From contig JAFMDE010000005.1 of the NCBI GenBank assembly GCA_017857425.1, positions 1 to 33,587 on the forward strand: a stretch of 33,587 nt of DNA, written 5' to 3'. The position numbers were made by a program, and so were the translations under genes. This DNA comes from Akkermansiaceae bacterium. Lineage in GTDB: Bacteria > Verrucomicrobiota > Verrucomicrobiia > Verrucomicrobiales > Akkermansiaceae. Of this stretch, positions 17,972 through 24,623 are shown piece by piece. The notes under the pieces are model-generated. The model worked only from the letters and a program-made list of their open reading frames with translations, was not told the DNA's origin and did no database searches. Within the stretch, counting starts at the first letter, position 1. Each line of letters begins with the position of its first letter.

Positions 17972-18349
17972 ATGGACGAAGCAGTCATTTATACCATTCT
18001 CGGTGAAGCCGGATTCACCAAGATGGTGGCCGCTTTTTACCGAAGAATTAAACAAGATCCTTTGATCGGCCCGATGTATCCTGAAGAGGACCTCGCAGGG
18101 GCGGAAGAACGTTTGCGTGACTTCTTGTTATTTCGTTTTGGCAATGATCCACGCTATCAAGCTAAACGTGGCCATCCACGCTTGAGGATGCGGCACGCTC
18201 CCTTCTCCATTGGTGAAGCCGAGGCTGTGCGCTGGCTGGAACTTATGGACGAGGCGATGGATGAAACCAATGTTCCAGCGTCCATCAAGCTTGAGCTGAA
18301 TGCCTTCTTTACGATGGTTGCGCATAACATGCGCAACCGGCAGGAATAA
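17972..18349 (+). CDS. Truncated hemoglobin, group II (GlbO-like)
   Basis: 125-residue heme protein of the 2-over-2 globin fold. The group II signature RRGHPRLRMRHAPF-like segment is present as KRGHPRLRMRHAPFSIGEAE and contains the proximal His (RMRHAPF); the G8 Trp is in AVRWLELM and the B10 Tyr in AAFYRRI. The CD region reads FLLFRFGNDPRY, so the Tyr-Trp pair usual in group II proteins at this place is changed. Proposed roles for the family are oxygen, NO or peroxide chemistry; none is shown here. It lies 46 bases after argG and 25 bases before the in-frame-TGA gene, so the last two are likely co-transcribed. Confidence 0.93.
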   Translation: MDEAVIYTILGEAGFTKMVAAFYRRIKQDPLIGPMYPEEDLAGAEERLRDFLLFRFGNDPRYQAKRGHPRLRMRHAPFSIGEAEAVRWLELMDEAMDETNVPASIKLELNAFFTMVAHNMRNRQE

Positions 18350-18374: not shown

Positions 18375-18665
18375 ATGAACAGTATTTGGTTATTTGTCGG
18401 TTTTATTGGCCTCTATTTCTCCATGCAGTTATGGATTTTGCCTGCATGCGGTATTCCTACATGAATGTCGGGTAGAAATTCTCCGGGTGAGAATGAAGGC
18501 AAGGCAGCAGCAGTTACTAGCGAAGCAGTGGTAGTAGATAAGGTGAGTGAGCTAGATAAGCCGATCGACGTTGAGGCCTCAGAGACTGCTGATGTAGTTG
18601 AGAAACAGGATCAAGGAGGGCAACCCGAGGAAACTGAGCAACTTGATCCAACTAAGGGGCTTTAG
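18375..18665 (+). CDS. Candidate small membrane selenoprotein with in-frame TGA
   Basis: ATG at 18375 opens a 29-codon frame, MNSIWLFVGFIGLYFSMQ and onward, ending in LPACGIPT, then TGA at 18462-18464. The same frame continues without a stop for 66 codons (MSGRNSPGENEGKAAA and onward, a Glu/Asp-rich, probably disordered tail) to TAG at 18663-18665. Reading TGA as selenocysteine gives a 96-residue protein: one N-terminal membrane helix, a C-x4-U pair (C25, U30), then M-S-G and an acidic tail. Neither half looks like a complete gene alone. A hairpin matching bacterial SECIS rules follows the TGA. Alternatives are a Cys-to-TGA nonsense mutation, a sequencing error, or two coupled mini-genes, the second starting at the ATG just after TGA. 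No sel gene is in the window. The A-rich leader (CACATATAGAG) lacks a good Shine-Dalgarno. Confidence 0.6.
18478..18494 (+). promoter_or_regulatory. Candidate bacterial SECIS hairpin
   Basis: ATTCTC-CGGGT-GAGAAT: a perfect 6-bp stem closing a 5-base loop. The loop begins 19 bases after the TGA at 18462-18464 and has G at its second position. As I recall the published bacterial SECIS model, the loop is 3-14 bases, has a G in its first two positions, and lies 16-37 bases from the UGA; all three hold here. The stem is only moderately stable (two G-C pairs). Confidence 0.55.
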
Positions 18666-22803: not shown

Positions 22804-23757
22804 TTACTTCACGCTGCTTGCTTCCTCACGCGCTAAGGTGGCAGCTCCTATGATTCCCGCATCATTACTAAATTGAGCGGGGATGATTTCTAGCCCATTG
22901 AGAAAAGCCGGGGCCAGTTGTTTTTGGATACTTTCCTTAAGTGGGTCAAAGAGAAGATGGGCAGCTTTAGCAACACCTCCACCTATGATAATAGCGGCAG
23001 GGTTGAGAAGCCAGCAGGCGTTGACAACGGTGCAAGCGAGTTTTTGGGCAATGCCTTGCCAGATTTCTACTGCGACTTGATCTCCCTGAGCTGCAGCTTG
23101 GGAGAGCGCCGCTGGTGTGCATTCTGTAATACTTTTATCAATGTTATGCTTGGCGTAGGTTTGGCGAGCGTCAGCGGCGATCTCGTTGTTGCCGATGTAA
23201 TCTTCGAGTGAGCCGAGGTTGCCGTAAGCGCCCTTCCGCCCAGAGTAATCAATCGATGTCTGGCCAAGCTCTCCAGCGACGGAATGAGCACCTCGGAGCA
23301 TGTGGCCATGCGTGATGATGCCGCCGCCCACACCCGTGCCCAGCGTGATGCAGACTAAGTGGTCCTTGCCCATGCCTGCTCCTACTTTCCACTCGGCATA
23401 GGCCATGCAATTGGCATCGTTTTCGACAGTCACGGGAAGCTTTGTGCGATCTTGTAAAATATCTCGCAGGGCAATGTTGGTCCAGCCTTTGACATTGGTG
23501 AGGTTGTGGATATTGCCGGTCTCGAAATCAACAAATCCTGGCACGCCTACTCCAATGGCGCAAATTTCAGGGTGGTGGGCACGTAGATCCTCGATGACGT
23601 ATACGATGGCATCGATCAAGGGTTGAGCTTCATTAAAATCCTCGGTGGCGATGGCCGGCGCCTGGGCGATCACTTCATGTCCCTGGACAACTCCAAATTT
23701 GACACTGGTGCCACCAAAATCGATGCCGAGAGATAGGGGTAGGGCTGTTTGGTTCAT
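22804..23757 (-). CDS. ROK family kinase (glucokinase-like), zinc cysteines absent
   Basis: 317-residue sugar kinase. The ATP phosphate motif is SLGIDFGGTSVKFGVV, the sugar-binding/catalytic strand is VENDANCMAYAEW with the base Asp, GTGVGGGIITHG is phosphate 2, and IIIGGGVAKAA the adenosine motif. The ROK consensus CxCGxxGCxE is degenerate: here RKGAYGNLGSLEDYIG, with all three zinc Cys replaced while the Gly-x-x-Gly-x-x-Glu skeleton remains. Glucose or another hexose is the likely substrate, but it is not proven. The start overlaps the coaX stop by 4 bases (ATGA), so the two are translationally coupled. Confidence 0.9.
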   Translation of the reverse strand: MNQTALPLSLGIDFGGTSVKFGVVQGHEVIAQAPAIATEDFNEAQPLIDAIVYVIEDLRAHHPEICAIGVGVPGFVDFETGNIHNLTNVKGWTNIALRDILQDRTKLPVTVENDANCMAYAEWKVGAGMGKDHLVCITLGTGVGGGIITHGHMLRGAHSVAGELGQTSIDYSGRKGAYGNLGSLEDYIGNNEIAADARQTYAKHNIDKSITECTPAALSQAAAQGDQVAVEIWQGIAQKLACTVVNACWLLNPAAIIIGGGVAKAAHLLFDPLKESIQKQLAPAFLNGLEIIPAQFSNDAGIIGAATLAREEASSVK

Positions 23758-24623
23758 GGGTATGATATATTCAGATGGGCGATGATTTTTAATCCTTCGA
23801 GGGTGAGGTCTGGAGCGAGATGAGCGATTTCATCCAAGCCACGAGTAATGAGTGGGGCGTCTCCGCCAGTGGCTATAACTAGCGGGTCGTTAGCAAATTC
23901 CTTGTTGAGATTGTGCAGAATTTCACGCACCAAACCACGGTATCCATAGACGGCTCCGGCCAGCATGGCCTGCTCAGTTGATTTGCCAATAGCGCATTCA
24001 GGTTCTTGCAGTGTGATGTGGGGGAGCAGGGCGGTACGATTTGCCAGCCCCTCTGTCATTGAGGCAAGGCCAGGGGCGATAACGCCTCCTTGGTAGGAGG
24101 GGTGGTTTGAAGCTTGCACTCCTCCCGCCCGCTGCGCGGACGCACTGTCGTTCGCTGGGGCTTGCACTTCTCCCGCCCGCTGCGCGGACGCACCGTCGTT
24201 CGCTGGGGCTTGCACTTCATTGGGTTCGTCCGCTGGGGCGATGACGTCGAAGGTTACGGCAGTGCCGAAGTCGAGTACGATGCAGGGGCTGCCGTAGAGG
24301 GTGTGGGCACCGACGGCGTTGGCCAGACGGTCTGCGCCGATTTGCTCGGGCTTGGGGTAGTTGATACCAATGGGAAGTTTGCTGAGGTGACTGAGCTGAT
24401 GGCAGGGTTTATTGCCGAGCCATGATGCGAGGATAGCTGCTTTTTGGGGAACCACGGAACTGATGATGGAAGCGTCCCAGCTGATATCTGCGAGGCATTC
24501 CTCTAATGAATTCGGGGAGATTTCTGGAGTGGCAATGATCGCACGCCATGGGTCGAGCTGATCGCCATCAGCTAGGGCAAACTTCGTCCGTGTGTTGGAG
24601 TTATCGACGATCAGGAGGCGCAT
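23754..24623 (-). CDS. coaX: Type III pantothenate kinase with in-frame repeat insertion
   Basis: First step of coenzyme A synthesis. 289 residues; usual CoaX proteins are about 250-260. The ASKHA nucleotide motif is LLIVDNSNTRTKFAL (consensus D-x-G-N-T; Gly is Ser here), then GINYPKPEQIGADRLANA, the second Asp motif IVLDFGTAVTFDVI, GGVIAPGLASMTEGL and VIATGGDAPLITRG. Between FDVIAPAD and GGVIAPGL, where family members have a short turn, there is an extra segment of about 45 residues made of two near-identical 16-residue repeats, EVQAPANDGASAQRAG and EVQAPANDSASAQRAG, plus a partial third. The insert is in frame and lies at a surface loop, so the enzyme probably still works. No Shine-Dalgarno. 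Confidence 0.93.
   Translation of the reverse strand: MRLLIVDNSNTRTKFALADGDQLDPWRAIIATPEISPNSLEECLADISWDASIISSVVPQKAAILASWLGNKPCHQLSHLSKLPIGINYPKPEQIGADRLANAVGAHTLYGSPCIVLDFGTAVTFDVIAPADEPNEVQAPANDGASAQRAGEVQAPANDSASAQRAGGVQASNHPSYQGGVIAPGLASMTEGLANRTALLPHITLQEPECAIGKSTEQAMLAGAVYGYRGLVREILHNLNKEFANDPLVIATGGDAPLITRGLDEIAHLAPDLTLEGLKIIAHLNISYP
24113..24238. repeat. 48-bp tandem repeat inside coaX, two and a partial copy
   Basis: Copy 1 is 24113-24160, copy 2 is 24161-24208; they differ at two of 48 positions. A third, internally shortened copy of 30 bases (24209-24238) shares both ends with the others. Each unit contains CCGC-TGC-GCGG (self-complementary) and is GC-richer than the rest of coaX. 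The length is a multiple of 3, so the reading frame survives. Confidence 0.93.

Follow-up and report, generated by a model that had tools for sequence, protein, structure and literature searches.

Evidence for a family of small membrane-anchored selenoproteins in Akkermansiaceae

Small membrane proteins of the DUF6132 type carry a CxxGxC motif. Among described bacterial selenoproteins, those with UxxC or CxxU motifs combine an in-frame UGA, a bacterial-type SECIS element, cysteine (Cys) homologues and a nearby second Cys, and the families with several selenocysteines (Sec) hold two or three of them (PMC13188914). The bacterial SECIS rule places the hairpin loop 16-37 nt away from the UGA and requires a G among the first two bases of the loop (PMC13188914). 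Here we describe a locus in a window of 33,587 nt (the whole stretch of DNA analysed) whose product would be a one-helix membrane protein with Sec at residue 30, right after the helix, and a low-complexity tail. We are very confident that this is a real selenoprotein gene, of a family absent from the resources we checked and with a biochemical function that is inferred only; with little less assurance, and leaving its partner outside that judgement, we conclude that it encodes a membrane protein whose UGA is decoded as Sec and which has another redox-type residue. The features of the locus are:

17972..18349, plus strand: truncated globin gene, 25 nt upstream of the selenoprotein gene (Pfam Bac_globin, E 2e-24), a genus-conserved neighbour
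18375..18665, plus strand: inferred selenoprotein gene of 96 residues, Sec at residue 30, TAG stop (translated with TGA = U); homologues in more than 60 genomes
18384..18440, plus strand: single membrane helix, residues 4-22 (IWLFVGFIGLYFSMQLWIL), mean hydropathy 1.84 over 19 residues
18447..18449, plus strand: Cys25, five residues ahead of Sec (-5) and its probable partner thiol, replacing the +5 Cys of most single-Sec relatives
18462..18464, plus strand: UGA inferred to be read as Sec; TGA in 64/69 homologous genes, Cys codon in 5/69
18478..18494, plus strand: bacterial SECIS hairpin of 6 bp, loop CGGGT; compensatory changes in relatives

A single frame runs from ATG at 18375 through 29 codons to TGA (18462-18464), and through a further 66 codons to TAG at 18663-18665. 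These coordinates, the frame and codon counts, the one membrane helix and the 6-bp hairpin with its CGGGT loop had all been proposed in a first-pass annotation of this DNA, and each was borne out. The hairpin pairs ATTCTC (18478-18483) with GAGAAT (18489-18494) around the loop at 18484-18488; it begins 13 nt past the TGA with its loop 19 nt past it, and this spacing, the loop sequence and the covariation described below meet the bacterial SECIS rule. No other ORF of at least 80 aa overlaps the region of the gene, Rfam gave no match in the window, and promoter and terminator scans returned nothing exceeding chance. The Shine-Dalgarno sequence of the gene is weak, which counts against our reading. 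Elsewhere in the window, at 24112-24207, a 48-nt unit stands in two tandem copies (96% identical) within a minus-strand ORF (23754-24623), where it encodes a repeated QAPAND-ASAQRAG segment; this ORF appears to be a pantothenate-kinase-like gene, an identity that is unverified.

If translation ended at this TGA, the product would be a membrane peptide of 29 residues and the downstream frame would remain untranslated; TGA is indeed a normal stop in this genome, ending 4 of the 28 genes of the window. The homologues speak against it. Using a query with X in place of residue 30, we first screened 58 related genomes and recovered TGA-bearing relatives in 21 of them; an alignment-based screen of 260 genomes from the same family then raised this to about 61. 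Over 69 genes, the residue-30 codon is TGA in 64 and Cys (TGC or TGT) in five, and never TAA or TAG. The first-pass annotation had named just such an alignment of TGA or Cys as support, and its impression of a G-[VI]-x-T-C-M-S-G motif in Cys versions was right (GIPTCMTG, GIPTCMSG, GVPTCASG, GVPTCMGG); none of the homologues stops at residue 29, an outcome that it held would refute the proposal. Leucine 22, P23, G26, T29 and residue 30 do not vary across an alignment of 20 sequences, and 10 of the 13 differences between the window's own genome (G000) and its nearest sister (G003) downstream of the TGA fall at third codon positions. Given 64 homologues with TGA and none with TAA or TAG, the five Cys replacements, variation mainly at third codon positions and a covarying hairpin, we regard a true stop as very improbable.

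It is more improbable still that the TGA is read as some other residue, through a code change or suppression, or that it is a sequencing error, readings for which we have no specific support. Against them, other window genes end in TGA, the TGA is common to many separately assembled genomes, the replacing residue is Cys, not Trp, recoded TGAs have a hairpin after them, and selA, selB and selD are present. The Cys forms occur in G027, which has neither selA nor selC, and in four Omnitrophota genomes, one of which (G625) has the Cys form despite possessing selA and selC, a point we count against our reading. Confident matches in a 388-genome phylum-wide sample were confined to the window organism's own family, and no plasmid or viral relatives were found. 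Genome G601 holds, at locus L140 (G601:C267), a second, divergent member (RTUMSGGCSV) in addition to its usual one, representing either a paralogue or contamination.

Family hairpins lie 17-23 nt past the TGA and show compensatory base changes, and the five Cys genes have none. A hairpin equal to or better than that of the window follows 52 of the 64 family TGAs and 0 of the 5 Cys codons, against a background of 0.95% for an equally good hairpin at 16-23 nt among 14,239 other TGA triplets of the same loci; TGAs that end the reading are mostly without one. About a dozen members, many in genus g16, have a weak or shorter hairpin, which counts against our reading. Within the window's genus, both-side changes occur in 4 of 7 stem pairs and 96% of cells are paired, a proportion that falls to 45-66% when the partner is slid by 1-3 columns, and in genus g9 compensatory changes are seen in the hairpins of both the first and the second TGA. 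Stems with a GGTC loop contain 32 double-change cells, compared with 7 in shuffles. Alignments A2 and A3 contain no gaps and were trimmed at a set distance from the TGA; in alignment A4, stems were chosen by loop and pairing with letters unedited, a choice which biases the count of 32 cells upward, and the arm-swap test has the same upward bias. The hairpin is also visible in the protein: translating the SECIS loop gives the conserved post-TGA peptide SPGE (CCGGGTGAG), which Cys homologues lack, and the other conserved post-Sec peptides, SGGG, PVG and SQSG, are likewise SECIS loops in translation. The Cys genes lack these four peptides because they are translated hairpin loops, and since the hairpin sets the post-Sec peptide, the family shows an RNA signal shaping protein sequence.

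Decoding of the UGA at 18462-18464 as Sec would be carried out by ribosomes via SelB and tRNA-Sec, with the hairpin at 18478-18494 directing it. The sel genes, proposed earlier as a check on the selenoprotein reading, are found in the own genome only in part: selA is present, selB is above its curated cut-off and selD above cut-off, and no selC turned up in this incomplete, 237-contig assembly, though it is present in the sister G003 and in seven other family genomes. The best tRNA-Sec model matches in the own genome are ordinary tRNAs, and we claim no selC there; a 38-nt match on its contig C121 is not a tRNA. Among 12 genomes searched, nine (G003 included) have a tRNA-Sec that passes the Rfam threshold, and ARAGORN gives its anticodon as tca in every case. 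The selC gene of G003 adjoins what we read, without a library search, as a type-II topoisomerase B-subunit-like gene; the own assembly misses both the tRNA-Sec and the start of this adjoining gene, which makes a gap in the assembly the likely explanation for the missing selC. The own-genome selD (L151, G000:C23:13094-14017) has one in-frame TGA (CAGUASK), a codon from which we infer that SelD is probably a selenoprotein too. Across the 58 genomes, selA occurs in 20 of the 21 TGA carriers vs 11 of the 37 others (Fisher p = 1e-6, kinship uncorrected); G005 has the gene with no selA found, and counts against our reading. The decoding element and machinery are thus evident in sequence, and Sec insertion is without direct proof. 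Taken together, the TGA/Cys homologues, the covarying hairpin and selA, selB and selD in the genome strongly support the original selenoprotein proposal.

Several members appear to contain more than one Sec. In genus g9 a second TGA follows 10 or 11 codons further on, with its own GGTC hairpin; two in-frame TGAs also occur in G024, G288, G565, G583 and G012; and G566 (L132, G566:C82) has four, each with its own SECIS-like hairpin, three of them joined by a repeated SQSGSTUGS-like segment. Each of the 69 members has a further Cys or Sec close by. In 34 the sole partner is Cys at +5, in four (the window's lineage) it is Cys at -5 alone, 30 carry an additional Sec, and one has Cys at both places. 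A second TGA was scored as Sec if it lay close or had a hairpin, and these second-Sec counts are therefore inferred from sequence. On this evidence, the second Cys or Sec near residue 30 suggests a redox or sulfur-transfer pair, and Sec and the second thiol (Cys25 here) may be linked by a Se-S bond that opens and closes reversibly at the surface of the membrane. The Sec/Cys pair of a genuine selenoprotein could instead bind a metal or ligate heme without Se-S cycling, which we consider unlikely though it deserves weight. In its favour, the second Cys or Sec is always there, and globin and TANGO2 occur as neighbours; against it, the partner shifts among -5, +5 and +10 to +29, which a flexible redox pair would accommodate more easily than a fixed metal site would, and the Omnitrophota neighbour is a disulfide-reductase/rhodanese fusion.

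The truncated globin lies at the same place in 11 of the 12 members of the window's genus, ending about 120 nt ahead of the Sec codon. In other genera a TANGO2-like gene lies downstream at 28 loci (2 of these by weak partial match), with DoxX upstream in three of them; all four Omnitrophota Cys genes are 49-85 nt ahead of a pyridine-nucleotide-disulfide-reductase/rhodanese fusion, and peroxiredoxin is also among the family's neighbours. A VTT (DedA-like) domain protein is downstream in L134 (G586; Pfam), with a similar-looking one in L042 (G020). Bacterial TANGO2 homologues act in heme traffic (PMC10470608); for the human protein, a 2026 crystal structure casts doubt on specific binding of heme (PMC13044924). 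The characterised enzymes that we judge closest to the Omnitrophota fusion are the NADH-dependent persulfide reductases, whose activity is the reduction of persulfides (PMC7969121). These neighbours suggest a role in redox chemistry or in the handling of heme or sulfane sulfur without deciding among them, and because they differ between clades the partner of the selenoprotein is uncertain. Judged by charge bias, the Omnitrophota proteins would be C-in and those of genus g16 N-in, and charge counts do not settle the topology.

Of the roles we can envisage for a Se-S pair, that of a membrane-held selenol/thiol carrier, which would reduce, or exchange sulfur with, heme- or persulfide-handling partners, seems the most likely, and we give it about an even chance. 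A little more tentatively, the family may consist of membrane-anchored selenol proteins for heme or persulfide handling that gained Sec by duplication of a UGA-plus-hairpin module, giving a single Sec in the window, a pair in several genera and four in G566. This natural series of 1, 2 and 4 Sec, with one hairpin per UGA, offers a system in which to study SECIS-directed decoding, and the presence of globin and TANGO2 genes nearby hints at a connection, open to testing, between selenium and the way bacteria handle heme. The family also adds to the known selenoproteins one that usual gene calling truncates, as standard annotation would cut the gene at the internal UGA.

Pfam and NCBIfam (June 2026), searched at E up to 10 with the window protein and four homologues, gave no meaningful match, and the family is absent by name and by motif from the 119 families of a 2026 review, including its Table 1 (PMC13188914). 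Literature searches found no description; they left subscription papers mostly uncovered, and an earlier mention in a groundwater-genome selenoprotein survey (cited in PMC13188914) is not excluded.

Among known systems, the window protein is like DUF6132-type proteins in being a short membrane protein with a CxxGxC-like motif, a likeness we treat as a lead only, and unlike them in having no DUF6132 Pfam match at E up to 10; a search of phages with a DUF6132-like sequence found nothing and has no bearing on the case. With the YeeE/YedE thiosulfate transporter selenoprotein (GUxSG) it shares a membrane location and a Ser-Gly soon after Sec, a motif likeness taken from the review table alone (PMC13188914), but YeeE/YedE is a different, larger family to which no sequence relation was found. 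A further parallel is with the UxxC/CxxU selenoproteins, whose in-frame UGA, bacterial-type SECIS, Cys homologues and nearby second Cys are all matched here. Unlike them, the window family has no thioredoxin-like domain, with a single helix and Sec beside the membrane; its spacing is U-x4-C or C-x4-U rather than UxxC or CxxU; and its members contain up to four Sec, compared with the two or three of known multi-Sec families.
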